Source of the DNA: Prevotella sp.
Lineage (GTDB): Bacteria > Bacteroidota > Bacteroidia > Bacteroidales > Bacteroidaceae
DNA: 64,000 nucleotides
Direction: 5' to 3'
Assembly (NCBI GenBank): GCA_024680755.1
Contig: JAILBT010000006.1
Coordinates: forward strand, 1 to 64,000
Shown: positions 22,263 to 57,834 of the stretch, one piece after another
Layout of the letters: each line of letters opens with the position of its first letter
Numbering within the stretch: position 1 is the stretch's first letter
The notes under the pieces: model-generated
The model's input: only the letters and a program-made list of their open reading frames with translations
The model's database searches: none
Told to the model about the DNA's origin: nothing
Translations under genes and position numbers: made by a program

Positions 22263-22321
22263 TGCCTCAGATTACTCTGATTACTCTGATTACTCTGATT
22301 ACTCTGAAAACTCCGATTTGA
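22262..22321 (+). other. Possible 19-aa coupling leader peptide, (ITL)n
   Basis: ATG at 22262 overlaps the previous stop (tgATG) and the ORF ends with TGA at 22319-22321, which overlaps the TTG start of the 4066-aa gene (TTGA). Its codons are four 9-bp att-act-ctg repeats, encoding MPQ(ITL)4KTPI. The geometry fits translational coupling, but a repeat-made peptide could be accidental. Confidence 0.35.
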
Positions 22322-31300: not shown

Positions 31301-34300
31301 TCCACGGCATCGCTCCCACCGAGACATCTACGCTATACGTGAGCCGCGAGTCGGACATCTACGACCTGTCGAAGGAGAAGATCATCACCGTCATCTATCA
31401 GTACGACTACGAGGAGACCGACACCAGGGGCAACGTCACGCCCATCAGCGAACGCCACATCGTGAACATACACCTGCAGTTCAAGAGCGGCATACCCATC
31501 GTCGAAGACATCAAGGCCCCAGAGATTGTCCTGCCGGGCGACAACGTCTCGCTGCGCGAGCCTAACGTCACGCCCGGTGCCTACGAGGTGACGGGCGGCG
31601 GCTGGGAGCTGTTCGAGAACATCGACGATGCCGAGAGCCACACCAACGGCATCGAATACTCGCCCAACTTCGACCCACTCTACTGGTATCAGGACGGCTA
31701 CCTCGTGGCCTACTATGCCAAGACATACCTGGGCAAGACATACTCTAACACCGTGAAGCTGGGCGTGGCAAACTATCACGACCTGAAGCGCGTGATGGAC
31801 GACAAGCTGAACCACTACTACATAGACAACGAGCAGGTGAAGCGCGAGCCCAAGATCTACATCAACGACTACAGCGCTGCAGGACAGAACGGCCTGAAGC
31901 TCTTCAGCGACCTCATCGACCTGACCCACGGCAAGCCCCTCGACGGCCACACGCCGCTGCAGCGCACCGCCGCCGACGTGACGAAGAAGCCCATGCGCGG
32001 CGGCAAGTACCTGGAGTTCTTCCTGCGGGCCAACCAGAGCGCACCCGCCGCAGAACCAGGCAGTCCTGACACATGGACGCCCATAGCCGACGGCGACGGC
32101 GAGTGCTTCAGCGGCACACTGCACGGCGACGGATACACCGTCAGCGGTCTGGCAGGCTCGCTCTTCGGTCACCTCTGCGGCGACGTGTACAACCTCGGCG
32201 TCACAGGTACCTTCACATCAGCCGGCATAGCCGACACGGGCGAAGGATACATGGAGAACTGCTGGATAGCCTCGACAGCGGCCACGGGACCCGCCGCCGA
32301 CACCAAGCCCCTGTTCGGCAACCCGTCGCGCGAGGGCGACAACGCGGTACAGATGGTCAACTGCTACTATCTCGAGGACGACGATGCCGCAGCCAAATAC
32401 ACCCCACACAGCGGCACACACGGCACAGCCACACGCATGACGGCACAGGCCTTCTACAACGGACAGGTGGCCTACAACCTGAACGGCCACTACCTGAACA
32501 GGCGCTACGACATGGCCACGGGGCTGACCACCACCGACCCCCGCCACGGCAACCAGCAGTATGTTGCCGACCGCCTGAGATACGGCGACTTCATCTACGC
32601 CGCCGGAACGATACCCGAGACGGCCGAACCACGCCTGCTGACAGATGCCGACGGCAATCCCGTGACAGACGCGGAAGGCTATCCGAGCTATGCACCCATC
32701 TGGCCCGACGACTACATCTTCTTCGGACAGATGCTCACCTACGGCCACAAGGACGACCGCGCACACCAGCCGCTGCCCGCCCACATCAACAAGAGCGGCG
32801 GACTGCTGACCACCCGCGCCACAGCGGTCAACCGCGTCTGCCGCGCACCGGCCTATTTCCGCTCGGCACAGATGGGCGTGGCACACTACAACCCGGGAGC
32901 CGTCTTTGCGGCTCAGTCGGCAGACAAGACGCACAGCGTCTATCCCGGCATGACAGCCATCGACTTCACCGGACACGACGACATCGACTGGACACGCGGC
33001 GCTGTCAGTCCTGTAGGTGGCCAGGCCAACGCCACCACGTTCTTTTACCCGCCACTGTTAGACAACGACGGGCTGACCGGCTTCACCAACGCCGACCTGA
33101 CCAAGAACCTGCTGACATACACACCGGGCCCGTCAGACCTCTCCGAAGCCGACACCAAGACCTACTCCGTGGTGCGCACAGCCCTGAGCGAACCGGCATA
33201 CACCGAGACAGCACCCGACACCTATCGCACCGTGGCCGAACAGTCGGTAGGCAGTATCCACGGACACCATGTGGTGAAGACAGGCACCGACGACGACGGG
33301 GCCGACATCTACACCGCCACGAGCGACCACCTGCTGGTGGACCGTCAGGACTTCAACGCGCCCATCAGCTATACCTTCGACGGCAGCCACCGCATGTACT
33401 ACCAGCGCACGCCCGACACCTACGCCGCCTTTGGCCCCGCCGGCACGACTCAGGGCTGGGAGGGCATCAGCCTGCCCTTCACCGCCGAGCTGGTCACGAC
33501 ACAACAGAAGGGCGAGATAACGCATTTCTACCGCTGCGGGGCAGACCCCGACAAGGGTTCCATAGGCCACGAATACTGGCTGCGCGCCTTCGCCGGCGAC
33601 GTGACACAGAAGAAAGACGACCAGGGCAATGCCATCAGCGGTGTCTATGAGGCCGCCTTCGCCTACCCAACCGCCGCACCCGGCAGCAACGCCGACAAGA
33701 CCGTGACAAACACCTTCCTGTGGGACTACTACTACGCGTGGAACACGCGGCGCGACCTGAACAGCGACACCTACCAGCAGTACTATCAGGCCGACGACGA
33801 CGGCACGGTGGCTACCTACCCCGCATACGCCTTCGCGCAGGGTGCCACACCATATATCGTCGCCTTCCCCGGCGCAGACTACTACGAGTTTGACCTCAGC
33901 GGACAGTTCCGTCCATCGACGGCAGCCTCAGAACAGCCCAGGCAGCTCGAGCGTCAGGTCGTCACCTTCGCCTCGCCCACCGGCACCACCATCGGCGTGA
34001 GCGACAACGAGCGCGGCACCGATGGCGACGGCTACGCCTTCCGCACCAACTATCTGACGCAGACCTTCCCCGCCGGCACCGCCGACACCTACACCATGAA
34101 CGCCGAAGGCACAGCCTACACGCTGGTTCCCACCGCAAGCGCCGACCCGGCCGCACCCGTAGCCCCGGCCACCGTCATGCCCTTCCGTCCCTATTTCGTC
34201 AAGACAGCGGCAGGCGGCCGCGAGTCGCGAAGCATCGTGTTCAGCGACGATGACGACGCCACGCTCACGCCCCACGCCGGCAGCAAAACCGGCGGTTCGC

Positions 34301-34603: not shown

Positions 34604-37600
34604 ATGTCACAAGTCGATACCAAAGGATACATACTGCGCCACGCCATCATGCTCACCTTCGCACTGACCACGGCTCCACTGTGCCTACGCGCCCAAGAAC
34701 CCGTGGAGAACGGCGAATACTACCTCATCCAGAATGAGAACAACGATAAGATGTACTACCTGTTGCCCGCAAGCCACCAATTCTGGCAAGGCAACACCGC
34801 CACGCCCTACCTGCGCACTGCGATGACAGCACGCGAGACCTCGGTGTTCCGCATAGAACGTGATGACCATGATGACAAGACCTGCTACCGCTTCACACAT
34901 GCGGTAACAGGAAAATATATAGTCTGGCAAGGTGCCGTCAGCAAAGATGACAACGCTGTCATCCACCTTGAGACTATTGCAGACCTGAATTCCTACGCCA
35001 ATCGTGACAATCTGAGATTCCGCCTTATAAAATCGACCAACAACAATTACGCCATCGTACACTATGGACTGAAGGAAGGAATCGGCGAGAATAATTCATG
35101 GAATCCCTTCGGAACTAACGACCACACGACCCGTGGACGTATAGGTATATGGAAATCAAGCGATGATGCCTCGTCGCGCTGGATATTCGTCAAGACCACG
35201 GCTCCTGTGACAGTAAGCTATAACAATGGCGGCTCACCCACCTTCACCGCCACATGCACCGATGGCGCTGCCACAATCTATTACACCACCGACGGCACTG
35301 ACCCCACCACGTCAGACACCCGCACGGCCTATTCAGGAGCTGTGTCGGCCTCGGGCGTGGCCCTGTTCCGCGCCACGGCAGTAAAGGCCGGTTGCCAGAG
35401 TGTAAGCTACGATGCTTTCAACCCGGACATACGGTTCCTCTTTGAGCATGTGCAAAGCCCAGGCTTCTACATACTGCCTCACAGCGACGGAAGCAAACTG
35501 AACGTCAACAGCCTGGCACGTCCCTCGGCCGCATGGACGCTGGAGGATGCCGGCACCTTGGATGGAATACAGTATTTCTATCTGCATCTGGCCGATGCCA
35601 GTGTGAACAAGTATCTGCATTACGCCGGTGGAAACGGAGGTGCTCTGACGTTGAAGGCCACCAACGATGGCAGCAACAACTATAAGTTCCGTTTCGACTA
35701 TGACTCAAACTCAGGCACCTACCACATCTGCCCGATGGTCAACCCGTCGAACATGCTGCGGAAGAATACCAACGACGATGGCACTAAGACACTTTATACT
35801 ATGGCAGAGACGGACGTAAGCAAAATGCATCAAGCACGCCAGTCAACAGATGTCCAGTGGAAGCTTCTGCCCATGACCTCGCTGCCCGTTGCTCCTCCCT
35901 TCGACCTGTCGGACAACACCAGCACACATGCCTACCGAATAAAAAATGCAGCCTACACGAGCTATTGCCTCATTCCACCGCGTGGACCAGTGGGCAACAT
36001 TCAATACGCCACTGCGCTCAACAACAGCGAAAACTACACCATCTGGCTGTTCAAGGATGCCGGCAGCGACCAATGGCTGCGCTACTACTACATAGTCAAC
36101 GCCTTCACGGGCCAGTACCTGTACTACCGCGAAGCCGTGTCTTCTGGCGAAAAAGAGAGGGCTTTCAACACCAAGCCCCACACCGGCAGCGAGACGGGAG
36201 AAGAGGAGGACCGCTTCCAGTTTGCTGTGGCCAACACCGTCGCACCCGCCAACAGCTACTACCTGACGCCCAAGCTGATGCGCTATGAGAACGACGGCGT
36301 GAATTACCGTCTGATAAGGCGCGATGGCGGCAATCCGCTCAAGCTGAACACCCAACGCAGCGACAATGCACACAAATGGATTATCGACGATGCGGGCCTC
36401 GTCGCCCCACCCGTCATCACCATGAGGGCTTCAGACAACAAGGTGGAGTTTACTTGTGCCACGCCCGGTGTGACATACTATTATGAGACCGGCAACACCA
36501 CCCCCACCACCAGCAGCACCGCATACACCGAGCCCTTTGACATAGGCACCAACGTCACAACCATCAAGGCCATAGCCGTGAAGGATGGTGTCAGCTCGGT
36601 AGTGACAACCTTCGCGGTCAGTGTATTCACCGGCAGCAGCTACCAGTTCCGGATATACAACAACGAGTCGAGCTATTTCTTCGTCACATCTCTGGGCAAC
36701 ACCGAGACCGAGGGTGCACGTGTCACCACCACCAACCTGCCAGAAGCCGACATTTCCTGGCATGTGATGGACGGCGGCATTGTGGATGGGGTGCAGTATT
36801 ACCACTTTGTCAGCGACAACGATGGAAGCTACATGGCCTGCGACAACGACAAGATATGTATGAAGTCGGCAGAGACCTTTGCAGCTGCCACCGGCAACGA
36901 CGTCAACAAGTATCGCTTCAGAATTACGCGCTCAGTCACTGACACTGGCGCGGATGCCACTGGCTTCATGATTCTGCCCTTCCCGAAGCCTGCAAGCGGC
37001 TTCCGCAAGGTCAGCCACGACAACACCGACCCTATAGTACTCTCGGCCTCAGACAAGCCCGAACAACTGTACAACGACCAGTCGAGATGGAGGTTTGCAG
37101 CAATGGCCAAGCCCTACAGCATGAGTTACCTGACAGCACTTGACGCCTCGCTCGTGACGGGTGCTACCGATTGTCCAAAACCATTTCTCGTCCAGAACAA
37201 GGGCAATTCATCGTCCTTCCTTACTCCTGACGAGACAACGGGCAACCCAGCCGATGCCGTAGCAGACGGTTCATATCAGGAATGGTATATAGTGCATGCA
37301 GGCAACGACAGCTGGTCACGCTACTACTATCTGCGCAACTGCGCCACAGACGAATATCTCTCGTTCAGCGGCACGGCCGGGCAGGATAACGTCAACGGCT
37401 TTACCACCGTCACAACAGGCTCGCCCACCGATGCCTGCAAGTTCATGATTGTCAAGACGGCCAACCACAACGGAGGGACGTCGTACAACATCGTTCCAAA
37501 GGCTCTCAAAAATCTGCGCAACCAGGCGCGAATCAGTATGCATACAGGAGGATCCCACCTCTCGTGCGGAAACAGCCGCAACAACGCTAACGCGCAGTGG

Positions 37601-40600
37601 ATGTTTGTTTCCACCATATTCCTGTTCGCTCCACCAGTAATCACCAAGGACGAAGAAACCTCCACGATAACCATCACAGCCGAGGCTGGCGCAACCATAC
37701 GATATGCCGGTTACGACGTTCCATCAGACGAACCAGAGCTGACGCCATCTTCGGGCGGCAGTGTCTATTCGGCTCCTTTCACCTCGACCCATCTCTACTA
37801 CAAGGCCATAGCATACCGCTGCACGGACGAGAGCGACGTGTCTGACCCCACCATTTTCGGCCGAACTGCCAGTCCGGTCATCACATACGACTACTCCACC
37901 GAGCTTGTCACCATCGAATGTGCCACAGCCGGAGCCACAATCTACTATACCACCAACGGCGACACGCCCACTACTGCTTCAACACAGTACACTGCGCCCT
38001 TCACACTGAGCAGGGACAATCCCGTGGTTATCAAGGCCATCGCAGTCTTTCACAATGAAGAGTCAGACGTTGCCATCTTCAATCAGATGCCAATCCTTGT
38101 CGTTTCGTCGGATGACATAACAGACATGACAGCCTACTATCTCCTCAGCCCGAGTTTCACAGCATCCGAGCCCATCGGCAGTGAGGCCAGTCCCTTCATG
38201 GGAACCATCGACGGAGATTTCAATGACATCACCCTCAGCTGTCCACTCGTGGCATACGCCGAGGATGCCACCATAAAGAATGTCGTAGTAGCCTCGGCCA
38301 CAGTCAGCGGCAGTGGCAACATTGGCGCTCTGGTTTGCGAGGCTGCTGGCACAACGCACATATACAACTGCGGCGTACTCAGTCCTTACGATGCCAGCAC
38401 GCAGCAGTTCACATCCACCAGCACCGTCAGCAGCAGCAATGCAGCCGCGGGCGGACTCGTCGGCCACATCGCAGAAGGTAGCCAGGTTCGCGTAGTCAAC
38501 TGCTACAGCTATGCCAACGTGAGCGGCAGCACCCATGCGGCAGGAATCGTGGGCAACAATGAGGGAACCGTGGGCCTGGTCAGAATAGCCAACTGCATGA
38601 TGTACGGCAAGCTGACCGGCGGTACGGTCAAGTCGCCCGTCTATGCCGGCAACCACATCAGCAACGTGCAGAACTACAGCGAATACAACTACTGGCGCTA
38701 CCGTGCCTACACGACCGACGAGACGCCCTATACCGCCTATAACGACCAGTTGGCCATTGCAGACGATCGATGGCTGACGCGCTTCCCATTCTACCGCCAC
38801 ATACAGAACACCCACCGCGAGCTGGCAGCCTTCTTCCTCTTTGGAAACCCGGCACGCCCACAGGCTCCGTCGGCCGACAAGGTGGCCGAGATAGGCCACT
38901 GGGTGCTGAAGCCCAACGTGGCACCCTACCCTATCATCGAGGAATGGAAAACCAACACAGCCAAAACAACCGTAGATATCAATGCCAATTTGCCCAACAC
39001 CAAGGCAAGATATGCTGGCAAGAAGCTGGACGACATAACGGGTGATATGGTTTACAGAGGCGACGGCACGCAAGTGACGTCGATGGGTAGCGGCGGTATG
39101 CTGACCGTCAACTACACGATCAACGACGGCACCACCAACATCAGCGGCAGCGTCAGCCTGCCGATAACAGACATGGACACACTGCGCTACGACTACACCT
39201 GGGGCAAGGTGGTGTTGCCTTTCGCCAACGAGTTCAGCGACTGGCGCGACCGTGCCAATCCCGACTACAGCAAGGTCATAACGGGCTGGAAGATAACCAG
39301 CGTGACAGGCGGCACAGCAGGTGCCCTGGATGCCAACTACAACTTTGCCGACCGCGACTGCACAGCAAAGGACATCTATCATGCCACGAACAATCCATAC
39401 GTCTTTGCCCAGGGCGGCAACTATATCGTGCCATACGGCGTGACATCCATTTCCGTAGAAGCCAACTTTGCCAAAGCCTTCTACCTGAGCGACGGACGCG
39501 CCGACTTCGGCTATGATGCCAGCTACAAGAATCAGGTGAACCTCGGATGGTCTGTGTCCCCCTCATACCATGGACAGACGGTCTATACAAGCCTCGTCTC
39601 TCTGGTCTCGGTACTGTCTGAGGCCTCCAACCCCAACCAGCAGGCCATAGTACTTGTGGGTAACTACCACTACAACCAAGGCACCATCGGCGGCACAGTC
39701 TTTGCCACCAACAAGGCTGTTACCATCATGAGCGTTGACGACGACAACAACCAAGAGCCCGACTACGGCTGGTATTCATTCCACTCAAACGCCAACCGCT
39801 CAAAGGTCGCGCCCATGCGCTTCGACTTTGTTCCCAACATAGGCATGGGTATGGCCACGCGCGTAACGGGCAGCACGCCCAACCCATCGATAGGCATCTG
39901 GCACCTTCTCGGCTGGTTTGAAACGACCGAGACGGCACTCTGCCACATGAACGAGTGCGAGATCAACTCCGGCGTTTTCAACGCTGACGACAATGGTCAT
40001 GGCAACAACAGATGGGTAATCAACAGCGGCTTCTTCAAGCAGATTATTCGAGGTTTTGAGAAAGCCGACAACAAACTGAGCTACGTGCAGATTGGAGGCA
40101 ACGCATACGTGGAGCAATACTACCCCAGCGACCACATCACAAAGAACCTTGTCACAAAATTGCGTCCCACCATCGTCACAGGAGGCGAGATTGAGGACTG
40201 CTTCATGACCGGCAACCACGGCTCAGCCGAGGGCAGCAACATTCAGTTCTGGTGTGCTGGAGGAAAGATACACAAGTATCTGTCGGCATTCACCACCAAT
40301 CCCACAACGGCCAACGTCAACGTCACGGCCAAGGTTGACCACGCCCTGATAAGCCGTTTCTTCGGTGGAGGCACCTCAGCATCTGCTCGGATTACCGGCA
40401 ACATAAACGTCACGATGAACAACAGTAAGGTTGATTTCTACTGTGGCGGACCGGAGTTTGGCGACATGTCGAGCGGCAAGGCTGTCACCACCACGGCCAA
40501 AGGCACCACGTTTGGCGAATACTACGGAGCAGGCTTCGGCGGCACTTCGCTGACCACGATCTATAAGGTCGAGCAGTCAGACTTCGCATTCCCAAGCGCC

Positions 40601-41347
40601 ATCTCAGAATTTCCCATCACGTGGAACAATTACCTGTATCTGACCACAAACGCCAGCAATGGCCTGGGCGTGGGCTACACCTTCGACTACATACTCTATG
40701 CCGGTGGTACCGGCACGGGCGTGGCACGCTTCTACAACAAGTTTGCACGCTTCTCGCTCGCCACGACGGGCAACGTCACCAACACCCTACTGGGCTGCAC
40801 CGTTTTAGGCGATTTCTATGGCGCAGGCTGCCAGGGCAAAGTGAGCGGCACCGTCACCACCACCCTGACCGACTGCGCCGTCAACGGCAATGCCTACGGC
40901 GGTGGCTATAAGGCAACGAACAACAAGCTCAACGTCTATCCCAACACACAGCCTGCCTATTCAAGCTACTACAAAGAGATGGGCCTGTTCTCCGATTTCG
41001 GCACAGTGACGCCCGAAGAGTGGGAATGGGTGCAGGGCGCCTTGGACGGAAAGGACGAGGCCAACCACAAGCTCACCACCAACGTTGACCTTACCACCCT
41101 TGGCAACGTCACCGGTGCCATCTCGCTCACCATTGACGGCGACAGCGAGATAGGCACACCGGGCGACCCCGCGACGGGCAACGTCTTTGGCGGCGGCAAT
41201 GAGAGCCGTTCGCTCAGCAACGCCACCGTCAGACTTCAAGGCAACACACTCGTGCGGGGCAACGTCTATGGCGGAGGCAACAAGGCCGACGTAGAGGGCA
41301 GCTCAAAGGTAGAGATACCGGCTGCGCCCAGCGGCTCGGGAGACTGA
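34604..41347 (+). CDS. Giant mosaic lectin-like/Ig-like/GLUG surface protein (2247 aa)
   Basis: A signal peptide (about residues 1-30, ending LRAQ) precedes a modular exported protein. Five beta-trefoil (ricin B-like) modules of about 150 residues lie near 32-196, 280-426, 436-596, 679-836 and 855-1006, each closing with a Trp block (SRWIF, VQWKL, HKWII, SRWRF, AQWMF). Chitobiase C-terminal-like modules (IYYTTDGTDPTTS, ATIYYTTNGDTPTTAS) lie near 199-276, 600-674, 1009-1083 and 1089-1160. Residues 1165-1360 are GLUG-like (GGLVGHIAEGS, VVNCYSYANVSG). Residues about 1920-2247 carry the same VYGGGN repeat as both neighbours. Trefoils suggest glycan binding; the shared repeat suggests the three giants interact or derive from one another. 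No C-terminal sorting domain is visible. Confidence 0.8.
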   Translation: MSQVDTKGYILRHAIMLTFALTTAPLCLRAQEPVENGEYYLIQNENNDKMYYLLPASHQFWQGNTATPYLRTAMTARETSVFRIERDDHDDKTCYRFTHAVTGKYIVWQGAVSKDDNAVIHLETIADLNSYANRDNLRFRLIKSTNNNYAIVHYGLKEGIGENNSWNPFGTNDHTTRGRIGIWKSSDDASSRWIFVKTTAPVTVSYNNGGSPTFTATCTDGAATIYYTTDGTDPTTSDTRTAYSGAVSASGVALFRATAVKAGCQSVSYDAFNPDIRFLFEHVQSPGFYILPHSDGSKLNVNSLARPSAAWTLEDAGTLDGIQYFYLHLADASVNKYLHYAGGNGGALTLKATNDGSNNYKFRFDYDSNSGTYHICPMVNPSNMLRKNTNDDGTKTLYTMAETDVSKMHQARQSTDVQWKLLPMTSLPVAPPFDLSDNTSTHAYRIKNAAYTSYCLIPPRGPVGNIQYATALNNSENYTIWLFKDAGSDQWLRYYYIVNAFTGQYLYYREAVSSGEKERAFNTKPHTGSETGEEEDRFQFAVANTVAPANSYYLTPKLMRYENDGVNYRLIRRDGGNPLKLNTQRSDNAHKWIIDDAGLVAPPVITMRASDNKVEFTCATPGVTYYYETGNTTPTTSSTAYTEPFDIGTNVTTIKAIAVKDGVSSVVTTFAVSVFTGSSYQFRIYNNESSYFFVTSLGNTETEGARVTTTNLPEADISWHVMDGGIVDGVQYYHFVSDNDGSYMACDNDKICMKSAETFAAATGNDVNKYRFRITRSVTDTGADATGFMILPFPKPASGFRKVSHDNTDPIVLSASDKPEQLYNDQSRWRFAAMAKPYSMSYLTALDASLVTGATDCPKPFLVQNKGNSSSFLTPDETTGNPADAVADGSYQEWYIVHAGNDSWSRYYYLRNCATDEYLSFSGTAGQDNVNGFTTVTTGSPTDACKFMIVKTANHNGGTSYNIVPKALKNLRNQARISMHTGGSHLSCGNSRNNANAQWMFVSTIFLFAPPVITKDEETSTITITAEAGATIRYAGYDVPSDEPELTPSSGGSVYSAPFTSTHLYYKAIAYRCTDESDVSDPTIFGRTASPVITYDYSTELVTIECATAGATIYYTTNGDTPTTASTQYTAPFTLSRDNPVVIKAIAVFHNEESDVAIFNQMPILVVSSDDITDMTAYYLLSPSFTASEPIGSEASPFMGTIDGDFNDITLSCPLVAYAEDATIKNVVVASATVSGSGNIGALVCEAAGTTHIYNCGVLSPYDASTQQFTSTSTVSSSNAAAGGLVGHIAEGSQVRVVNCYSYANVSGSTHAAGIVGNNEGTVGLVRIANCMMYGKLTGGTVKSPVYAGNHISNVQNYSEYNYWRYRAYTTDETPYTAYNDQLAIADDRWLTRFPFYRHIQNTHRELAAFFLFGNPARPQAPSADKVAEIGHWVLKPNVAPYPIIEEWKTNTAKTTVDINANLPNTKARYAGKKLDDITGDMVYRGDGTQVTSMGSGGMLTVNYTINDGTTNISGSVSLPITDMDTLRYDYTWGKVVLPFANEFSDWRDRANPDYSKVITGWKITSVTGGTAGALDANYNFADRDCTAKDIYHATNNPYVFAQGGNYIVPYGVTSISVEANFAKAFYLSDGRADFGYDASYKNQVNLGWSVSPSYHGQTVYTSLVSLVSVLSEASNPNQQAIVLVGNYHYNQGTIGGTVFATNKAVTIMSVDDDNNQEPDYGWYSFHSNANRSKVAPMRFDFVPNIGMGMATRVTGSTPNPSIGIWHLLGWFETTETALCHMNECEINSGVFNADDNGHGNNRWVINSGFFKQIIRGFEKADNKLSYVQIGGNAYVEQYYPSDHITKNLVTKLRPTIVTGGEIEDCFMTGNHGSAEGSNIQFWCAGGKIHKYLSAFTTNPTTANVNVTAKVDHALISRFFGGGTSASARITGNINVTMNNSKVDFYCGGPEFGDMSSGKAVTTTAKGTTFGEYYGAGFGGTSLTTIYKVEQSDFAFPSAISEFPITWNNYLYLTTNASNGLGVGYTFDYILYAGGTGTGVARFYNKFARFSLATTGNVTNTLLGCTVLGDFYGAGCQGKVSGTVTTTLTDCAVNGNAYGGGYKATNNKLNVYPNTQPAYSSYYKEMGLFSDFGTVTPEEWEWVQGALDGKDEANHKLTTNVDLTTLGNVTGAISLTIDGDSEIGTPGDPATGNVFGGGNESRSLSNATVRLQGNTLVRGNVYGGGNKADVEGSSKVEIPAAPSGSGD

Positions 41348-41409: not shown

Positions 41410-44400
41410 ATGACTCGAAACAGATTCAGACAAAGATACATCACGCACACATACCTACCCACTCTGCTGCTTACGGCGGCAACACTGAGCATCGCGCCTG
41501 CCCGGGCGCAGCAGGAATCCACCGGCGTTCGCGTCATGGGCAACGTCTTTGGAGCAGGCAAGGGACTTGACAACGATGCCAACGCGGCCAAGGTGCATGT
41601 AGGCTCGACGGTAAGCATCGCCAGCGGCCATGTCTATGGCCACGTCTATGGCGGCGGCGAGATGTCGAGCGTGGGCAACCCTGAAGAGACTCAGGGAGAA
41701 AAGACCGAAGAGAACCCCTTCGGCTATGCCACGGGCACAGCCCGAGTGACGATAGACGGCACGGCGCAGATCGGCACCGACAGCAACTGTATGGGCGAAC
41801 ATGCCACGGGCGGATATGTCTATGGCTCAGGCCTGGGCAAGGCCGGCTCTGTCTATTCAGACCGGACATACGTGAAGAACACCATCGTGACCATCGGCGG
41901 AACGGCCAAGGTGCGCGGCTCGGTGTTCGGCTCGGGCGAGAACGGCCACGTCAGGCACGACACCCGGGTGAACATTCAGGACGACTGCGAGATTGGCACC
42001 GAGCTGACCACATACACCGTCACACACACCGAGACCAACGAGCAGGGCGAGGAGGTGCAAGTCACAGAGACCATCAACGAGCACGAAGTCGATGCCGACG
42101 GCCAGGGTGCCATCATTTACCGCGGAAACGTCTATGGCGGAGGCCGCGGCGTGGATCACACCGTGGGCGACGGCACCCACTACAGCCTCTCCGCCGGACG
42201 CGTCTATGGCAATACAGAGGTGAACATCACCGGCGGCAAAGTCTTTCACGACGTGTTCGGCGGAGGCTCGCTGGCCACCGTCGGCACGGCCACCTACGAC
42301 GACAACAACAACATCACAGCCTACACAGCCGGCACAGGCAAGGCCACGGTCAACATCAGCGGCGGCATCGTGGGCTACTCGCTCAACACGGCCACCTGGG
42401 GCCGCAACTGCGGCTTCGTCTATGGCGGCTGCCGCGGTCTGGCCGCGCGGCTTACCGACGACGCCGTGCACATGGCCTACGTCCACGACACCGAGGTGAC
42501 CATCAGCGGCACGGCCATGATCAAGGGCTCGGTGTTCGGCGGCGGTGCCAACGGCCATGTGCAGCACGACACCCACGTCAACATCAGCGGCGGAAACATA
42601 GGCGAGCCTCTGACCGACGACGAAGCCTTCTTCGATGCTCACGGCCTGGCCGCAACGCCCATCTTCCGCGGCAACGTCTATGCCGGCGGGCGCGGTGTGG
42701 ACCACTATGGCGACGGCGACGAGGACCTGAGCCTGACAGCCGGCCGCGTCTTCGGCAACGCCTCGCTCACGATGACCGGCGGCCATGTGTGGCACAACAT
42801 CTACGGCGCTGGCTCGATGGCCTCGGTGGGCACGGTGGAGCGCGACGACAACAACAACATCGACTTCCTCAACGGGACATGGGACCCCAACACCGGCCAC
42901 ATCACCATCGACATCAGCGGCGGCATCGTGGGCGACAACACCCTAACGGGCGGCACCATCTCTGAGGGCATCACAGCCACGAAAGACCACCCGGGCCGCA
43001 ACAACGGCCGCGTGTATGGTGCAGGCCGCGGCGTGTCGGCAGGCCGTTCCAGCCGTATGGCCGCCATGCAATATGTCTATGACACAGAGGTGAACATCAG
43101 CGGCACGGCCTATATATACGGCGCGGTGTTCGGCGGCGGCGAGAACGGCCATGTGCGCTACGACACCCATGTCAACATCAACGGCGGCGTGATAGGCTGG
43201 CCCCTCACGGCCGACGAGTGTCACTACAACGCCGACGGCACCGCCACCAACCCCTGGCGCGGCCATGTCTATGGAGGCGGCCGCGGCGTCGATCCGATGT
43301 TCCACGACTATGCTGCCGGTCACAGCTTCACGGCAGGACGCGTCTATGGCAACACCAACATCACGATGACCGGCGGACTGGTACGCCGGGCCATATATGG
43401 CGGCGGACTGCTGGCCTCGGTAGGCAACTACACGATGGAGGATGCCGACCAGCCTGATGTCAACATCGACGAGGACGACATCCAGGACTGGCACTTCGAT
43501 GAGAGCCTTGACGAGAACGGACAGCCCAAGAACAAGAACGGCGTGGCCACCATCACCATCAGCGGCGGCTACATAGGCAATGTCAACACCGATGGCACGA
43601 TGATAGCCGGCACAGCCCTGACAGGAACCGACAAGCCCGGCCGGCCCGGCTACAACAACGGCCATGTCTATGGCTCGGGCTGCGGCATGGTGGCCGATGC
43701 CCTGGAGCACGACGAGCAGTATTCCCAGATGGGATATGTCTATCGCTCGGTGGTAACAATCGACGCTCCGGCAGAACCCGACAGCGTGCCGCACATACGC
43801 GGCTCGGTGTTCGGCTCGGGCGAGAATGGCCATGTGTGGGAAAACACCCACGTCACCATCAACGGCGGCATCATCGGAGCCGACTACGACGAGGCCCTGG
43901 ACACCGACCAGCACCGCTTCCTGGGCAACGTCTATGGCTCGGGCCGCGGCGTGGACCACACCGAAGAGTCAACAGCCCAGCTGACACACATCAGCCGCTC
44001 GGCCGGCAAGGTGGCCGGCAACACCAACATCACCATCAACGGCGGCGAGATATGGAACGACATCTATGGCGGCGGCTCGATGGCCTCTGTGGGCGACCCC
44101 GACGAGAACCTTAACGACGGCCATCACGCCGACGGGCAATACCACACCGGCCTGGCTACCGTCGTCGTGCAAGGCACATCGGTGGTACACGGCTCTGTCT
44201 ATGGCTCGGGCCGAGGCATCGCCAGCACCAATCCTGACTATCAGCAGGCTGCCTTCATCAAGAACAGCGACGTGCAGATCCTGGGCAGCGCACATATATA
44301 TAATAATGTGTATGGCGGCGGCAATGCCGGCCACGTGCGCAAGAACACCAAGGTGACCATCGGCGCTGCCACCGGCGAGCAGCAGCCCACCATCGACGGC

Positions 44401-47400
44401 AGCGTCTATGGCGGCGGTGCCGGCTCGACGGTGTCGGCCTCGGCCGGCGCGGTAAACCACAACGTAGAGGTGAACATCCTGGGTGGCACGATAGAGAAGA
44501 ATGTCTATGGCGGCGGTGCCGTGGCCAACAGCAACCTGCACGACCAGGACAACACAGCCACCGACAACGCCGACTGCAAGGAGCAGTGTACCACGACCGT
44601 CAACCTGTTGGGCGGACTCATCAAGGGCGATGCCTACGGCGGCGGCGAGGGAGTGTGGAACACCGCCAACGGCGATGCCGTCGTCTTCGGCGACATCAGC
44701 GTGGTGCTCGACGGCACGCGCTTCAACATCACGCGCCAGGACACCGACGAGGACAGCACCGAAGCGCAGACCGACTCTGACGGCAATCCCGTGCTCGACG
44801 ACGACTCGCAGCCCGTGATGAAGAAGGTGCAGGTGGTGAAGAGCGGCCGTGTCTTCGGCGCGAACAACCTGAATGGCTCGCCGCGCGGCAACGTGACCGT
44901 CACCGTGGAGCGCACCGAAGAGGGCAACACGCCGCGCACGGCTGCCGACACAGACGACAGCAGCCGGGCCAGCCGCAGCGCCGACGTGCCACACACATAC
45001 GAGGTGGCGGCCGTCTATGGCGGCGGCAACCTGGCATCGTTCACCACGGCGGGCCGGACGGCCAGCGTCGTCATCAACAACTGCGACGTCAGCATACGCG
45101 AGGTCTATGGCGGCGGCAATGCTGCCGACGTGCCGGCCACAAGCGTCACCGTGAACGGTGCATGGGAGATAGAGACCGTCTTCGGCGGAGGCAACGGCAA
45201 CGACAAGTACACCACCGACGGCGGCACCACATGGGCGCTGAACCCAGGAGCCAACGTGGGCGGCAACGCCACCACCCTGCTCAACGGCGGATACATACAC
45301 GAGGGCTACGGCGGCAGCAACAAGAAAGGCACCATCACGGGCGAGGTGTCTATCACGGCTGGCTCAAACGCATCATGTCCACTGGAGGTGGGCAAGATTG
45401 TGGGGGCCGGCAAGAGCGCCGACATCGAGGGCGACGTCATTCTCGTCATGGGCTGTATGCCAGAGACAAAGATACCCGTGGTGTTTGCCGGTGCCAACAA
45501 TGCCAACGTATATGGCGACGTGGAGCTGACCGTCACCTCGGGCAACTTCGGGCAGGTGTTCGCCGGCAACAACGAGGGCGGACACATCTACGGCCACATC
45601 AAGCTCAACGTGGAGGAGACCAGCTGTATCCCGCTGAACATCGACGAGCTGTATGCCTGTGGCAACCTGGCCGCATACTCGGCATACGGATATGATGCCA
45701 CCGACGGCCACCCGCTGACCCAGGCCGAATATGACGCCCTGAACACAGCCTACGCCACGGCCCTGGCCGCATGGAACGAGCTGACGCCCGAGCAACAGGC
45801 CGCAGGCACGGCTCCCGTGGCTCCCCGGCGCTATGCCGACCCCGAGGTGAACGTCATCTCGTGCACCAGCATAGGTCAGGTCTATGGCGGCGGCTATGGT
45901 GCCACGGCCGTGGTCTATGCCAATCCGACGGTCAACATCAACATGCTGCCCGGCGACCACGCCGCCAGCATCGACCGCGACGGCGACGGGGCCGATGGCA
46001 ACGCCCACGCCCTGGGCACCATCGGCGAGGTGTATGGCGGCGGCAATGCAGCCGACCTGTATGGCAACACCACCGTCAACATAGGCACCGCACAGACCGT
46101 CACACTGCACTCGCGTAAGGACGACCATGACAACTACACCGAAACGACCGAGACCGTCGAGGGCGCGCGCATAGTGGGCCGCGTCTTTGGCGGCGGCAAC
46201 CTGGCCGCGGTGCATGGCAACACCGAGGTGAACATCTGCGCCGTCAGACAGACCGTAGGCGACGAAGAGCTCATTCAGGGCGTGGACTATACGGACACCG
46301 ATGCCGAGGGTGTCAGCATCAACGTTGTCACGTCTGAAGAGGAGACCACCGGCATGGTCTTCGGCGGCGGCAACCAGGCCGACGTGACAGGCAACACGGC
46401 GGTCAACATGGCCGGCGGATTTGTTTACAACCGTATCTACGGCGGCGGCAACATCGGCTCAATAGGCACCATCACGTCGCGCACAGCCCCCGAGAGCAGC
46501 CACACACATACAGGTGACGAGGCCTGCGTGGGCGGCAAGCCCGACACCTTTGCCACGGGCACAGGCACATGCACCGTCAACGTCCTGGGCGGACAGGTGG
46601 GGCCCACGGGGCTCGTCATGCCCCAGGACTATGGCTATGTGTTCGGCGCCAGCCGCGGCATGGTGGAGAACCCCGCCGTCGATCCCGACATCGACTTCCG
46701 CACGTATGTCTCTGACACCCATGTGACCATAGGCGGCACGGCCTTCATCACTGGCGGCGTCTATGGCGGCAGCGAGAACGGCCGTGTGCGCCACGACACC
46801 CATGTGGTCATCGCCGGCGGACAGGTGGGCTGCGGCAAGAACGCCACCGAGCCCTACGACGAGTCGGTCTTCAGCTCGAACCTGCCCCCACGGAAGGCCG
46901 GCGGCGGCGAGGACGAGTATGATGACTTGGAGTGTGCCAGCTGGCCCTACGGCAAAGTTGTCACCAAGGCCGGCAAGGAAGTGACACTGTACCTGCCCTA
47001 CGACCCCGAGGCCACGGCAGGCGACGACAGCGACGATGCCGACCCGTCGGGCAGCGACGGCCACACCTTCTATGGCAACGTGTTCGGCGGCGGCTCGGGC
47101 TTCTTCCCCTACGAGCTGAAGGACGCCAATGGCGCCGTGACAGGCCACGAGTGGCTCGAGTCGGCCGGGCTGGTCGAGGGCGACACATACGTCAACATCA
47201 CGGGCGGACACATCCTGACAAGCGTCTATGGCGGCAACGAGCTGACCGACGTCACCGGCACCTGCCACGTCACGATGACGGGCGGCACCCTGGGCGTGCC
47301 CCGCACGCTCGGGCAGATAGCGGCCCACCCCGTGACATGCTATCTCTTCGGTGCAGGCAAGGGCGACCAGCGCGTACACTTCAACCAGCGCACCAACGTG

Positions 47401-50400
47401 GGCACCGTCGAGGTGGAGGTGTCGGGCACGGCCCGTATCTTCGGCTCGGTGTTCGGCGGCGGCGAAGACGGCCATGTGCTGGGCAACACCCGCGTGACGA
47501 TAGGCAATCCCAACAACGAGAACAGCCCCTACATCGGCAACTGGGGCACCAGCTATGTCGATGGCAACATCTTCGGCGGCGGCCGCGGCTTCGGCGGCGA
47601 TGCCTTGACCGCCGGCGTGGTCAGCGGCAACGTGCACATCGACATCCGGGGCGGCCACATGCTCGGCTCCATCTATGGCGGCGGACGCCTGGGCTCGGTG
47701 GGGACATACCTCGTCCCACCCGCCGACGGCCGCTACGGCACCTTCATTCCCGAAGGCAAAGAGCAGAACCTGCACGGCGACGATGTCAATGCCCCTGGCA
47801 CGACCCACGGCCACATCACCATTGCCATCAGCGGCGGCACCATTGGCAACGACCACGAATACCTCCTCCCCAAGGCCGGCGACCTCACCCCGGCGAAAGC
47901 CGTCAGCACATGGACGGAGGCCGACTGGACAGCCTGGAAGCAACGGAAGAACATACCCAACACCCTCTTTGGCACAGACGGCAGGCTGGCACACACCAAG
48001 GGCGGCAACGTCTTTGCCGGAGCCATGGGCCGACTGTACAACCTGGACGGCAAGTCTGCGCTGGACCACTGGCCCGACATGGCCCGGGCACGCAGCACGC
48101 AGCTGACCGTCATCGGCGGCACTATCAAGAGCTGCGTCTATGGCGGTGCCGAGCTGGGCACGGTGGGCGAGGTGGTCAGCCATACCGACGGCGAGACCGT
48201 CACGCAGGAGCTCGTAGGTGGCACCGACATCACCATCACGGGCGGCACCATAGGCACCGTGATAGAGGATGAGAACAGCGTGCCTCAGTACACCTTCGGC
48301 AGCGTGTTCGGCGGCGGCTACGGCAGCACCATCGAGAAGCTGATGACCAACAACGGCACCGTCGAGACCAGCCCGAAGTTCACGGCCGGCCTGCTTCACG
48401 CTGGCACGACGGTGAGCCTGCAGGGCGGCATCGTCCGCGCCAGCGTCTATGGCGGCGGCGAGGTGGCCAGCGTCGAGGGCAGCTCCAGCGTGACCGTGGG
48501 CGGCACGGCAGAGGTTGGCCACGACAGGTGGGTGTCGGGCGATGTCGTGCGCTACTTCGGCGGTGCCACCATGGGCAACGTCTATGGCGGCGGCAGCGGC
48601 CACCGCAACATCGTGCGCTGCGGAAAGATATTCAGGAATGCCACCGTCAACATCACCGGCGGCAAGATATACCACAACGTCTATGGCGGCGGCGCGTTCG
48701 GCACGGTGGGCGACTTCAGCTACGACACCCGTATCGACCCCGAGTACGGCACGCCGAAGGTCTATGGCGTGACTGGCCTTAACACCGTGGACACGGGCAC
48801 GGCCACCGTCAACATCACCGGTGGCATCATCGGCACCGACGGCAACGAGAACGGCATAGTGTTCGGCTCGTCGCGCGGCGAGGTCGATGGCAATGCCGAG
48901 CGCGACGACTATGGTGCCTACACCTACGACACGCACGTCACCATCGGCACGCGCGACGACGAGACGGCCGGCCCCGTCGTCCGGGGTTCTGTCTATGGCA
49001 GCGGCGAGAACGGCCACACGTTCAACAACACGGTGGTCAACATTCACAGCGGCATCGTGGGCATCGACGATGACGCGGGCGATGCCGACGTGACCACGCG
49101 CGGCAACGTCTATGGCGGCGGCTGCGGCACCGACACCTACACCGCCGACGGCAAGAAGCTCTACAATCCCGAGGCCGGCATCGTGCGCGGCAACGCCACC
49201 GTCAACGTCACCGGCGGCCGCGTGGTGCGCACCGTCTATGGCGGTGGCGCTATGGGCTCGGTGGGCACATTCAACAAGGCCAATGCCGAATATCATGAAG
49301 CCCACCCCGACGTGGCTGTGGGCACACCCTACGAGTGCACGTCGGGCGGACTGTGCACGGTCAACATCAGCGGCGGCAGGATAGGCCCCAACGTGATGCA
49401 GATGCCCAACAGTTACGGCCACGTGTTCGGGGCTGGACGCGGCCAGATGCACGACCCTGCCGAATACGTCAATCTCGAGACCTCGGGCTTTGTCAATGCC
49501 ACCGAGGTCACCATCAGCGGCACCGCCTTTGTCAAGGGCAGCGTCTATGGCGGCAGCGAGAGCGGCCATGTGCTGGGCGACACATGGGTGAAGATACAGG
49601 GCGGACAGGTGGGCTGCGGCAGCAACACCACCGAGCCCTACGACGAGACGCTGTGGACCGCCGATGCCGACCCGTCGCTCTTTGCCGAGTGTGTGAGCTG
49701 GCCATACGAGCCGCCCTACGCTCCCTACGACAAGTTTGCCTTGGCCGACGGCAACTATCCCGCCGGCGCTGCTCACGAGAACGCCGATCATGGCAGCCGC
49801 ACGGCCACCGACGGCCACACCTTCTACGGCAACGTGTTCGGCGGCGGCTCGGGCTCGACACCCTACGCCCCCGGCGCATGGCTTCCCTCGGCCGGCTGGG
49901 TCAAGGGCAACACGCGGGTGGACGTATGCGGCGGCCATGTGCTGACATCGGTCTATGGCGGCTGCGAGATGTCGAACGTGGGCACCGGCATCAGCGGCGA
50001 CGGCGGCAAGGCCACGGTCCGGATGAGCGGCGGCACCATCGGCGTGCCACGCACCCTGGAGCAGATCATCGCCCACCCCGTCACATGCTACCTCTTCGGC
50101 TCGGGCAAGGGCGACCAGCGCATCTTCTTCAACAAGGAGACCAACGTCAAGGATGTGGACGTGGAGATCTCGGGCGGCATCATCTACGGCTCGGTCTTTG
50201 GCGGTGGCGAAGACGGCCATGTGCTGCGCGACGTCAACATGACCATCAAGGCCCCCGACGACCCCGAGAAGCCCGCTCCACACATAGGCACCCTGGGCAC
50301 CAGCTATGTCGATGGCAATGTCTTTGGCGGCGGGCGCGGCTTCAGCGGCGAGGCCCTCACGGCGGGCAACGTTGGCGGCTGCGTCACACTGAACATCGCC

Positions 50401-52710
50401 GGCGGCACCATGCTGGGCTCTGTCTATGGCGGCGGCCGCCTGGGCTCCGTGGGCTACGGCCTCTACCTGGTCGATGAGACGGTCGGCGGCGAGAAGCCCT
50501 ACGGCCAGCTGCGCCCAGACAACGTCAGCGACCGCGGCGACGAGGTGCCAAACTACAAGCGCGGCTATATCACCATCAACATCAGCGGCGGTACCATTGG
50601 CAACGACCGCGAGTACATCTACAATCCCACGGCCGAACAAAAGGCCGCCATACCCTATACCAGCTTCGACAGCCAGAACCGGCTGCTCTACACCAAGGGC
50701 GGCAACGTCTTCACCGGCTGCATGGGCCGGCTGTATGCCCTCGACGGCTCGCTGCTGCTGCAGTGGCCCAAGCTGGGCCACTGCAAGCAGACAGAGCTGA
50801 ACATCAGCGGCGGAACCATCAAGAGCAACGTCTATGGCGGTGCCGAGCTGGGAGCCGTGCAGCAGAACGCCACCGTCAACATCACCGGCGGCACGATAGG
50901 CACAAAGGTAGCCAGCAGCAGCGACCCGAGCCACTACTACTATTACGGCAGTGCCTTTGGCGGCGGCAAGGGCAGCACCGACGCCATCACCTACCCTGCC
51001 GGCACAGACGACGACCAGAAGACCGACATCAGCAAGGCAGGCTCGGTGTACGGCGATGTCGTGGTCAACCTTAACGAGGGAGTAGCCGAGACCGCCCGCG
51101 GCGGTGTGGTTCGCAAGGTGTTCGGCTGCAACGACACGAACGGCTCGCCGCGCGGCACAGCCACGGTCAACGTCTATGCCACGCAGAACGAGGCCAAGGA
51201 GACCATTGCCGACAAATACGCCACCGGCACCAGCCACTACGACATGGAGGCCGTCTATGGCGGCGGCAACTTGGCGGCCTACGAGCCTGCAGCAGCCAAC
51301 AGCGCCACCCACGTCAACATCTACGGCTGCGGCCTGAGCAGCATAGAGACCGTCTATGGCGGCGGCAACGCTGCCGCCACGCCCGCGACCAACGTTGACA
51401 TCTTTGGCACGCACGAGATTGACGAGGTGTTCGGCGGTGGCAACGGCAAGGACAACCTGCCCGACGGCCGTTCCAACCCGGGCGCCAACGTGGGCTACAA
51501 AAACTATACCGTCTATACCGATGAAGGCGGACAGCTCGTGGCCCACGATGCCGGCGATGCCGACACCAAGGCCAAGCGACTGGCCTCGGCATACGCCTAC
51601 GGCACGGGTGCGGCCAACGTGACCATCCACGGCGGCACCGTGCACCGCGTCTATGGCGGATCGAACACGAAGGGCAACGTGCGCATATCGGCCGTGACCA
51701 TGCTTGAAGACGCGAGCGGCTGTGCCTTCTCGGTCGATGAGGCATACGGCGGCGGCAAGAGTGCACCGATGGATGCCGAGGCCAAGCTACAGATGGCCTG
51801 CATACCCGGACTGAAGACGGCATACGGCGGTGCCGAGGATGCCGAGATAGATGGCGACGTGGAGCTGACCATCACCAACGGCACATACGACCGCGTCTTC
51901 GGCGGCAACAACGTGAGCGGACATATCAAGGGGAAGATAACCGTCAACATCGAGGAGACGGGCTGCAAGCCCCTGATCATAGCCCAGCTCTACGGCGGCG
52001 GCAACCAGGCGCCCTACAGCCCCACCACGCCAGCCGGCATGCAGGAAGGCATCACGCTGAACGTGCGCTCGTTCACCAGCATAGGCGAGGTGTATGGCGG
52101 CGGCTATGGCACACCGGCCGAGGTCACTGCCGACACACACGTCAACATCAACGTGAGCGAGGGCAAATATGCCGACAAGACATACGCCTATGCCGACGGC
52201 AAGACCGTCGACGACTATACCGGCAACAAGACCATCAGCTTCACCGAGTATCTGCGCCAGTACGATGCCGCAAGCAACACATGGGGCTTCCAGCTGAACG
52301 CCGACGGCAGCCGGCTGACCACCAACACCGAGGCCACCGTCTATCTGCCTCCGCTCGAGCCGGGCCACATAGGCGGTATCAACAAGGTGTTCGGCGGCGG
52401 CAACGCGGCCAGGGTCGTGGGCAACACCAACGTCAACATCGGCACCGACAGGGGCGACGACGTGTATATGCCCTATCCGCTGACCACGGGCGATGCCATT
52501 CCTGCCGACTGCTACACCCGCAGCGGCGAGGGCACAGCCGGCAGCCCCTACGTCTATACACCCGCGGCAGGCACGGTCGTGGCCGACACCGACTACTACA
52601 AGAAATTCCAGGTCAAGGGTGCCGTCATACGCGACAACGTGTATGGAGGTGGCAACAATGCCGACGTTACGGGCAACAGCAACGTCGTCATCGGCAAACG
52701 GGCTGAATAG
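41410..52710 (+). CDS. Giant exported [VI][YF]GGG-repeat protein (3766 aa)
   Basis: A signal peptide (about 1-34, ending ARAQQ) is followed almost at once by repeats that run to the last residues. By hand I count about 78 copies of [VI][YF]G[GSA]G or close variants, spaced about 25-80 residues apart. Typical frames are GSVFGGGENGHVRHDTHVNI, GNVYGGGRGVD and IYGGGSMASVG. Larger cassettes repeat too: residues about 1737-2097 resemble 2665-3017, and 1147-1424 resemble 3236-3557. The pattern of strand, glycine turn, strand (HVNISGGNIG) fits a beta-solenoid several hundred nanometres or shorter in length; that is inference. No enzymatic motif, lipobox or sorting domain is seen. It is the last gene before a 24-bp-stem hairpin. 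Confidence 0.8.
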   Translation: MTRNRFRQRYITHTYLPTLLLTAATLSIAPARAQQESTGVRVMGNVFGAGKGLDNDANAAKVHVGSTVSIASGHVYGHVYGGGEMSSVGNPEETQGEKTEENPFGYATGTARVTIDGTAQIGTDSNCMGEHATGGYVYGSGLGKAGSVYSDRTYVKNTIVTIGGTAKVRGSVFGSGENGHVRHDTRVNIQDDCEIGTELTTYTVTHTETNEQGEEVQVTETINEHEVDADGQGAIIYRGNVYGGGRGVDHTVGDGTHYSLSAGRVYGNTEVNITGGKVFHDVFGGGSLATVGTATYDDNNNITAYTAGTGKATVNISGGIVGYSLNTATWGRNCGFVYGGCRGLAARLTDDAVHMAYVHDTEVTISGTAMIKGSVFGGGANGHVQHDTHVNISGGNIGEPLTDDEAFFDAHGLAATPIFRGNVYAGGRGVDHYGDGDEDLSLTAGRVFGNASLTMTGGHVWHNIYGAGSMASVGTVERDDNNNIDFLNGTWDPNTGHITIDISGGIVGDNTLTGGTISEGITATKDHPGRNNGRVYGAGRGVSAGRSSRMAAMQYVYDTEVNISGTAYIYGAVFGGGENGHVRYDTHVNINGGVIGWPLTADECHYNADGTATNPWRGHVYGGGRGVDPMFHDYAAGHSFTAGRVYGNTNITMTGGLVRRAIYGGGLLASVGNYTMEDADQPDVNIDEDDIQDWHFDESLDENGQPKNKNGVATITISGGYIGNVNTDGTMIAGTALTGTDKPGRPGYNNGHVYGSGCGMVADALEHDEQYSQMGYVYRSVVTIDAPAEPDSVPHIRGSVFGSGENGHVWENTHVTINGGIIGADYDEALDTDQHRFLGNVYGSGRGVDHTEESTAQLTHISRSAGKVAGNTNITINGGEIWNDIYGGGSMASVGDPDENLNDGHHADGQYHTGLATVVVQGTSVVHGSVYGSGRGIASTNPDYQQAAFIKNSDVQILGSAHIYNNVYGGGNAGHVRKNTKVTIGAATGEQQPTIDGSVYGGGAGSTVSASAGAVNHNVEVNILGGTIEKNVYGGGAVANSNLHDQDNTATDNADCKEQCTTTVNLLGGLIKGDAYGGGEGVWNTANGDAVVFGDISVVLDGTRFNITRQDTDEDSTEAQTDSDGNPVLDDDSQPVMKKVQVVKSGRVFGANNLNGSPRGNVTVTVERTEEGNTPRTAADTDDSSRASRSADVPHTYEVAAVYGGGNLASFTTAGRTASVVINNCDVSIREVYGGGNAADVPATSVTVNGAWEIETVFGGGNGNDKYTTDGGTTWALNPGANVGGNATTLLNGGYIHEGYGGSNKKGTITGEVSITAGSNASCPLEVGKIVGAGKSADIEGDVILVMGCMPETKIPVVFAGANNANVYGDVELTVTSGNFGQVFAGNNEGGHIYGHIKLNVEETSCIPLNIDELYACGNLAAYSAYGYDATDGHPLTQAEYDALNTAYATALAAWNELTPEQQAAGTAPVAPRRYADPEVNVISCTSIGQVYGGGYGATAVVYANPTVNINMLPGDHAASIDRDGDGADGNAHALGTIGEVYGGGNAADLYGNTTVNIGTAQTVTLHSRKDDHDNYTETTETVEGARIVGRVFGGGNLAAVHGNTEVNICAVRQTVGDEELIQGVDYTDTDAEGVSINVVTSEEETTGMVFGGGNQADVTGNTAVNMAGGFVYNRIYGGGNIGSIGTITSRTAPESSHTHTGDEACVGGKPDTFATGTGTCTVNVLGGQVGPTGLVMPQDYGYVFGASRGMVENPAVDPDIDFRTYVSDTHVTIGGTAFITGGVYGGSENGRVRHDTHVVIAGGQVGCGKNATEPYDESVFSSNLPPRKAGGGEDEYDDLECASWPYGKVVTKAGKEVTLYLPYDPEATAGDDSDDADPSGSDGHTFYGNVFGGGSGFFPYELKDANGAVTGHEWLESAGLVEGDTYVNITGGHILTSVYGGNELTDVTGTCHVTMTGGTLGVPRTLGQIAAHPVTCYLFGAGKGDQRVHFNQRTNVGTVEVEVSGTARIFGSVFGGGEDGHVLGNTRVTIGNPNNENSPYIGNWGTSYVDGNIFGGGRGFGGDALTAGVVSGNVHIDIRGGHMLGSIYGGGRLGSVGTYLVPPADGRYGTFIPEGKEQNLHGDDVNAPGTTHGHITIAISGGTIGNDHEYLLPKAGDLTPAKAVSTWTEADWTAWKQRKNIPNTLFGTDGRLAHTKGGNVFAGAMGRLYNLDGKSALDHWPDMARARSTQLTVIGGTIKSCVYGGAELGTVGEVVSHTDGETVTQELVGGTDITITGGTIGTVIEDENSVPQYTFGSVFGGGYGSTIEKLMTNNGTVETSPKFTAGLLHAGTTVSLQGGIVRASVYGGGEVASVEGSSSVTVGGTAEVGHDRWVSGDVVRYFGGATMGNVYGGGSGHRNIVRCGKIFRNATVNITGGKIYHNVYGGGAFGTVGDFSYDTRIDPEYGTPKVYGVTGLNTVDTGTATVNITGGIIGTDGNENGIVFGSSRGEVDGNAERDDYGAYTYDTHVTIGTRDDETAGPVVRGSVYGSGENGHTFNNTVVNIHSGIVGIDDDAGDADVTTRGNVYGGGCGTDTYTADGKKLYNPEAGIVRGNATVNVTGGRVVRTVYGGGAMGSVGTFNKANAEYHEAHPDVAVGTPYECTSGGLCTVNISGGRIGPNVMQMPNSYGHVFGAGRGQMHDPAEYVNLETSGFVNATEVTISGTAFVKGSVYGGSESGHVLGDTWVKIQGGQVGCGSNTTEPYDETLWTADADPSLFAECVSWPYEPPYAPYDKFALADGNYPAGAAHENADHGSRTATDGHTFYGNVFGGGSGSTPYAPGAWLPSAGWVKGNTRVDVCGGHVLTSVYGGCEMSNVGTGISGDGGKATVRMSGGTIGVPRTLEQIIAHPVTCYLFGSGKGDQRIFFNKETNVKDVDVEISGGIIYGSVFGGGEDGHVLRDVNMTIKAPDDPEKPAPHIGTLGTSYVDGNVFGGGRGFSGEALTAGNVGGCVTLNIAGGTMLGSVYGGGRLGSVGYGLYLVDETVGGEKPYGQLRPDNVSDRGDEVPNYKRGYITINISGGTIGNDREYIYNPTAEQKAAIPYTSFDSQNRLLYTKGGNVFTGCMGRLYALDGSLLLQWPKLGHCKQTELNISGGTIKSNVYGGAELGAVQQNATVNITGGTIGTKVASSSDPSHYYYYGSAFGGGKGSTDAITYPAGTDDDQKTDISKAGSVYGDVVVNLNEGVAETARGGVVRKVFGCNDTNGSPRGTATVNVYATQNEAKETIADKYATGTSHYDMEAVYGGGNLAAYEPAAANSATHVNIYGCGLSSIETVYGGGNAAATPATNVDIFGTHEIDEVFGGGNGKDNLPDGRSNPGANVGYKNYTVYTDEGGQLVAHDAGDADTKAKRLASAYAYGTGAANVTIHGGTVHRVYGGSNTKGNVRISAVTMLEDASGCAFSVDEAYGGGKSAPMDAEAKLQMACIPGLKTAYGGAEDAEIDGDVELTITNGTYDRVFGGNNVSGHIKGKITVNIEETGCKPLIIAQLYGGGNQAPYSPTTPAGMQEGITLNVRSFTSIGEVYGGGYGTPAEVTADTHVNINVSEGKYADKTYAYADGKTVDDYTGNKTISFTEYLRQYDAASNTWGFQLNADGSRLTTNTEATVYLPPLEPGHIGGINKVFGGGNAARVVGNTNVNIGTDRGDDVYMPYPLTTGDAIPADCYTRSGEGTAGSPYVYTPAAGTVVADTDYYKKFQVKGAVIRDNVYGGGNNADVTGNSNVVIGKRAE

Positions 52711-57732: not shown

Positions 57733-57767
57733 GAGTTGAGAACGGATAACTGAGAGTTGAGGTCACC

Positions 57768-57833: not shown

Positions 57834-57834
57834 A

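Follow-up and report, generated by a model that had tools for sequence, protein, structure and literature searches.

What kind of protein is encoded by a Prevotella reading frame of 3766 codons whose product carries a glycine-rich VYGGG motif along almost its entire length, and does that repeat form a fiber? The frame, designated C, is the third of three consecutive giant open reading frames (A, B, and C; Table 1) in the stretch of 64,000 nucleotides that was analyzed, referred to below as the window. An earlier, sequence-only reading had described C as one long fiber of about 78 [VI][YF]GGG repeats and as a probable new class of β-solenoid. The present analysis indicates that the VYGGG repeat family is real, conserved, situated in a coherent locus, and apparently undescribed; giant secreted β-repeat adhesins are already known as a kind, and the solenoid class of C itself is unproven.

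Table 1. Coordinates of features in the window
Feature	Position	Strand	Description
DUF3575/OmpA-TPR protein	9994..11748	+	First gene of fimbria-like cluster
Three fimbrillin-like lipoproteins	11794-13821, 13846-15828, 15871-18051	+	No Pfam family
Mfa2-like fimbrial anchor	18079..19122	+	PF08842, over cut-off
Two further secreted lipoprotein genes of cluster	19204-21042, 21144-22262	+	
Protein A	22318..34518	+	4066 aa; begins at TTG; N-terminus resembles a signal peptide
T9SS type A sorting tail of A	34327..34467	+	TIGR04183; below cut-off in A alone
Protein B	34604..41347	+	2247 aa; signal peptide, RicinB_lectin_2, Fn3_assoc/CHB_HEX_C_1, β-rich middle
RicinB_lectin_2 in B	35915..36124	+	Residues 438-507, Pfam match
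Protein C	41410..52710	+	3766 aa; signal peptide, then VYGGG repeats to last residues; without C-terminal sorting domain
Signal peptide of C	41410..41511	+	Predicted from sequence; cleavage at about ARA/QQ; no lipobox Cys
C residues 241-840	42130..43929	+	Three super-repeats; AlphaFold pLDDT 80.3, pTM 0.88
C residues 3182-3766	50953..52707	+	Conserved C-terminal solenoid (predicted); AlphaFold pLDDT 91.3, pTM 0.90

Repeat Organization and Coding Status of Protein C

The strict motif [VI][YF]GGG occurs 39 times in C (shuffled sequences: mean 0.18, maximum 2), whereas the 78 copies reported previously are obtained with the looser pattern [VILAM][YF][GAVCT][GASC][GACSN] (shuffles: mean 3.95, maximum 9). 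The extent that had been ascribed to the motif, from just after the signal peptide into the final 25 residues, is correct; the first copy is at residue 46 and the last at residue 3744 of 3766, 23 residues short of the end. The most frequent short unit is 25 residues long, and six of the larger units, which are 176–242 residues long, can be aligned to the first with 42–57% identity. The spacing from motif to motif reaches 113 residues, and the wide spacings are read as loops or as unmarked rungs between motifs.

Comparison with its relatives indicates that C is a real coding gene, since its frame is open throughout, frames of similar or greater length are kept in the relatives, and dN/dS among them is 0.08–0.69 in seven informative pairs (≤0.37 in five of the seven and <1 in all). 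On this evidence of purifying selection, a low-complexity artefact was rejected. Conservation is concentrated in the motif window, with 70% identity as against 38% elsewhere. An antisense frame of 1728 codons inside C (46459-51645, minus strand) was dismissed as a gene because it mirrors the repeat; it appears to result from the repeat and from codon use.

Relationship to Known Families

Up to E = 1, C matched no Pfam or NCBIfam profile, enzymatic families included, and among Pfam models it matched neither a fimbrillin family domain (FimA/Mfa) nor an autotransporter β-barrel or TPS domain; barrel and TPS domains are likewise absent from B. A search of PDB sequences with C gave no match, and profiles of two parts of C gave nothing against the PDB apart from one chance match to a ribosomal protein (E = 0.68). 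When the 35 members of one alignment (A2) were compared with Pfam, a single member gave one sub-threshold match. Literature searches on the motif, giant genes, giant proteins of rumen Prevotella, and P. brevis proteomics returned no description of the repeat among the matches listed. The earlier view that the repeat belongs to no named family is upheld by these searches.

Relatives and Distribution

When 85,462 species genomes were scanned, 275 relatives were detected, and 73 loci were kept, all of them from Bacteroidales or Bacteroidetes. The repeat relatives are mostly ruminant-gut Bacteroidales; about 60 of the 73 loci carry isolate names that we take to be those of ruminant catalogues (RUG, RGIG, RUI, red deer), and the set also includes cultured Xylanibacter brevis ATCC 19188 as well as Prevotella sp. 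tc2-28. A signal-peptide-like start is present in 70 of the 74 ORFs of relatives with a complete 5′ end. Where the 3′ end is complete (82 ORFs), 54 stop, like C, within 45 residues of a rung, and at least 5 end in a tail resembling that of type IX secretion system (T9SS) cargo. In a sample of 399 genomes from the same bacterial family, relatives of A are found in 70, relatives of C in 64, and both in 57 (Fisher p ~3e-48), and of the 49 genomes for which positions were listed, 44 have C downstream of A and in the same orientation.

Two observations concern the size and surroundings of other members. A 72,055-base contig (G158:C104, loci L106 and L107) holds a single unbroken repeat ORF of 11,866 codons, of which the start, resembling a signal peptide, and 11,584 codons were read. 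In distant Bacteroidales (L027-L030, L039, L042, L044, L045, and L052), several repeat ORFs end in or just after a segment that looks chitobiase-like or Fn3_assoc-like, and some of the loci have a further ORF, with a signal peptide, next after the repeat ORF.

Predicted Structure of the Repeat

AlphaFold models were generated for a 600-residue slice of C (residues 241–840, input with 34 relatives) and for its C-terminal 585 residues (input with 46 relatives). Both consist of an all-β unit of ~25 residues in which every VYGGG occupies the same place. DSSP assignments over the sequence are register-locked, with two strand residues on the V[YF] of VYGGG in nearly all units, isolated bridges close to positions 6 and 10 in many of them, and a strand of 5–11 residues over the VNI.GG.I segment; in many units, another strand runs into the following VYGGG. 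The final rung, GNxYGGGNxAxVTGNxNVxIGK, is common to relatives. With confident models, short regular strands, and a period that agrees with the motif, the predicted structure fits a β-solenoid, as had been proposed, a confident repeat of this kind being the check that the earlier reading had suggested. The DSSP assignments may be read as a coil with a three-faced rung. The rise per rung of a β-solenoid is ~0.48 nm, and C would therefore be at least ~37 nm long if every motif is assumed to be one rung.

The further proposal of a new β-solenoid class is not established by these models. Foldseek comparisons with the PDB and BFVD gave no match with an E value below 0.001, and no significant match to a solved β-helix. 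The best values in the PDB were 0.066 (Hap, TM 0.15) and 0.34 (tapirin), both β-helical proteins but neither match significant, and the other weak neighbors included HxuA, HpmA, polygalacturonase, and alginate or fucoidan lyases.

Proteins A and B and the Probable Route of Secretion

The first ~1750 residues of A consist of the same repeats as C and are followed by a conserved middle and C-terminal part. The tail of A in the window scores 19.5 bits against TIGR04183, for which the cut-off is 23, but in the set of aligned A tails all 18 match with E no higher than 0.1 (8.9e-9 for the best), and A therefore has the tail of a T9SS type A cargo protein. Similarly, the T9SS-tailed solenoid ORFs of more distant Bacteroidales pass the cut-off in four of four cases tested. 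SprA is the core of the T9SS, and its presence in the genome (2599.7 bits, C70:65796-73133, 1.8 kb beyond the end of the window) shows that the machinery is represented. Neither B nor C has a T9SS tail; C gives no match to TIGR04183 and ends in a repeat rung.

The C-terminal end of B is made of rungs of the same repeat as C. In the window, B and C are separated by 62 bases and C has its own signal peptide, and in many relatives (e.g. L074, L075, L077, L079, and L086) the last part of B is immediately followed by the beginning of C within one ORF. A frameshift or assembly split in the window was rejected as the source of this difference, as C opens with a Met and a signal peptide of its own and the alignment of the relatives' single ORF to C starts only at about residue 44. 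The description of C as one long fiber thus misses its context as one of three consecutive giants, joined to B in a single ORF in many relatives, and also overlooks the long loops, of up to ~110 residues, that break its rungs; nor did that reading mention the T9SS tail of A or the fimbria-like genes that precede it. One relative (G013, L101) has two consecutive B-like stretches ahead of the C-type repeats, which suggests that part of B was duplicated. A match of B in relatives to PF05342 (M26_N) was rejected as a sign of a peptidase, as it covers only a short stretch of the N-terminal region.

The Fimbria-like Cluster and Other Neighbors

The three fimbrillin-like lipoproteins encoded upstream of A resemble one another and the products of genes at the same position in relatives, and C lies within a cluster that holds an Mfa2-type anchor, as do components of type V fimbriae. 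C is not itself a lipoprotein precursor with a lipobox, there being no Cys at its signal peptide cleavage site. The DUF3575 match is found in 7 of 11 A-positive genomes, and in all seven it precedes A, sharing its contig and strand, at 12–15 kb before the conserved part of A; it was not found in the other four. In three inspected genomes without this match, lipoprotein genes stand directly ahead of A. X. brevis ATCC 19188 has the same gene order as the window, and one gene of its locus matches FimA (PF06321) over the Pfam cut-off.

Directly after C, on the opposite strand (52975-54264), is a gene for a 429-residue protein with weak matches to outer-membrane β-barrels; it has no match in the flanks of the relatives, and its match to Epx was rejected as chance (12.5 bits versus a cut-off of 400). 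Also on the minus strand, DHHW/AlgX-like and MBOAT genes (56170-59313) are a probable pair for O-acetylation of an exopolysaccharide.

Discussion

We consider it fairly probable that A, B, and C form an adhesive fiber at the cell surface that is linked to the T9SS and to fimbriae and is built of giant β-solenoids. The glycine-rich units of the three proteins would then form a long rigid solenoid in which VYGGG is the same corner of each rung. A would be exported by the T9SS through its own C-terminal tail, B would place a lectin-like and Fn3-associated head at the beginning of the solenoid, and C would extend the solenoid of B, within one polypeptide in many relatives but, in the window, as a chain of its own. 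The three proteins would be made along with the upstream type V-like fimbriae and probably displayed by or beside them, with B and C presumed to be at the surface, and the long fiber may bind feed particles, mucus, or neighboring cells. This interpretation is supported by the confident models, in which the motif keeps a constant structural register, the concentration of conservation in the motif window, the co-occurrence and order of A and C, and the fimbria-like cluster upstream, which is also present in X. brevis and includes matches over Pfam cut-offs to Mfa2 in the window and to FimA in X. brevis. It is also supported by the T9SS tails on relatives of A and on distant solenoid ORFs, the proximity of SprA, the lectin and Fn3_assoc domains of B, and the continuity of the end of B with the start of C in relatives. 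It is weakened by the lack of a significant Foldseek match to a solved β-helix, by the four A-positive genomes that have no DUF3575 match, and by the absence from B and C of a T9SS tail, autotransporter barrel, or TPS domain.

It should be noted that hairpins often use NG and GG turns and that Foldseek found no close β-helix, so that C might be an all-β protein other than a solenoid, with hairpin turns at the GG or NG corners and a chain made up of stacked hairpins or small domains. However, in several units a single strand of 9–11 residues passes through the GG, and the isolated bridges recur at fixed positions of the motif, a pattern to be expected of coil corners rather than of hairpin turns; we regard such a structure as improbable. 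The polygalacturonase and lyases among the weak Foldseek neighbors, together with the carbohydrate-type domains on B, could point instead to a repeat-expanded β-helix enzyme active on polysaccharides, similar to a lyase or hydrolase, but C has no match to an enzymatic family and this proposal is very hard to credit.

A different question is whether the fiber has any physical link to the fimbriae. That distant Bacteroidales carry solenoid ORFs bearing T9SS tails in cis, and that the A-B-C core occurs without a DUF3575 match in four of the 11 A-positive genomes, would fit a separate T9SS-secreted solenoid fiber for which the fimbria genes are mere neighbors. Nevertheless, in seven genomes, including that of the cultured X. 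brevis, the cluster precedes A in the same orientation, and three genomes without DUF3575 still have lipoprotein genes ahead of A; independence from the fimbriae therefore deserves consideration but appears rather unlikely. Going beyond the favored T9SS- and fimbria-linked fiber, B, C, and A could be solenoids without caps, stacked on one another end to end through their rungs, that give a composite fiber on type V fimbriae. We view this extension as doubtful; if correct, it would define a new type of fimbria whose distal filament is composed of giant solenoids rather than fimbrillins and whose length is set by the splitting and joining of genes at the boundaries between rungs.

This apparently undescribed repeat family is present in about 1 in 6 of the genomes sampled from this bacterial family and includes an unusually long bacterial reading frame. 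Most of the named relatives come from the ruminant gut, a habitat in which adherence to feed particles is important for digestion. Because X. brevis ATCC 19188, a rumen commensal and a type strain in culture, has the locus, the function of the locus is open to direct testing. The locus also poses the question of the route by which proteins of 3000–11,000 residues that have no sorting tail leave the cell beside a T9SS partner.

Filamentous hemagglutinin and the autotransporter and two-partner β-helix adhesins are very long, secreted, all-β repeat proteins with a supposed rigid stalk. Hap, HxuA, and HpmA are among the weak Foldseek neighbors of C; C differs from these adhesins in having no TPS domain, barrel, sequence match, or significant fold match. 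The chlamydial Pmp repeats (GGA[ILV], FxxN) similarly distribute a short glycine-rich motif along a predicted β-helix, but no Pmp model in Pfam or NCBIfam matches C up to E = 1. With T9SS type A cargo, A and several distant solenoid proteins share the Por_Secre_tail, whereas B and C do not. The Mfa1/FimA type V fimbriae of Porphyromonas gingivalis resemble the present locus in combining fimbrillin-like lipoproteins and an Mfa2-like anchor in one cluster and in having a large T9SS-secreted accessory protein (A here, Mfa5 there); B and C, being without a T9SS tail, differ from this system. Mfa5 has vWF and IgG-like domains (PMC7835359), whereas A, B, and C are far larger and have solenoid-like repeats. 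Mfa5 is both a fimbrial tip protein and a T9SS substrate (PMC7835359) and thus provides a precedent for a T9SS protein within a fimbria.
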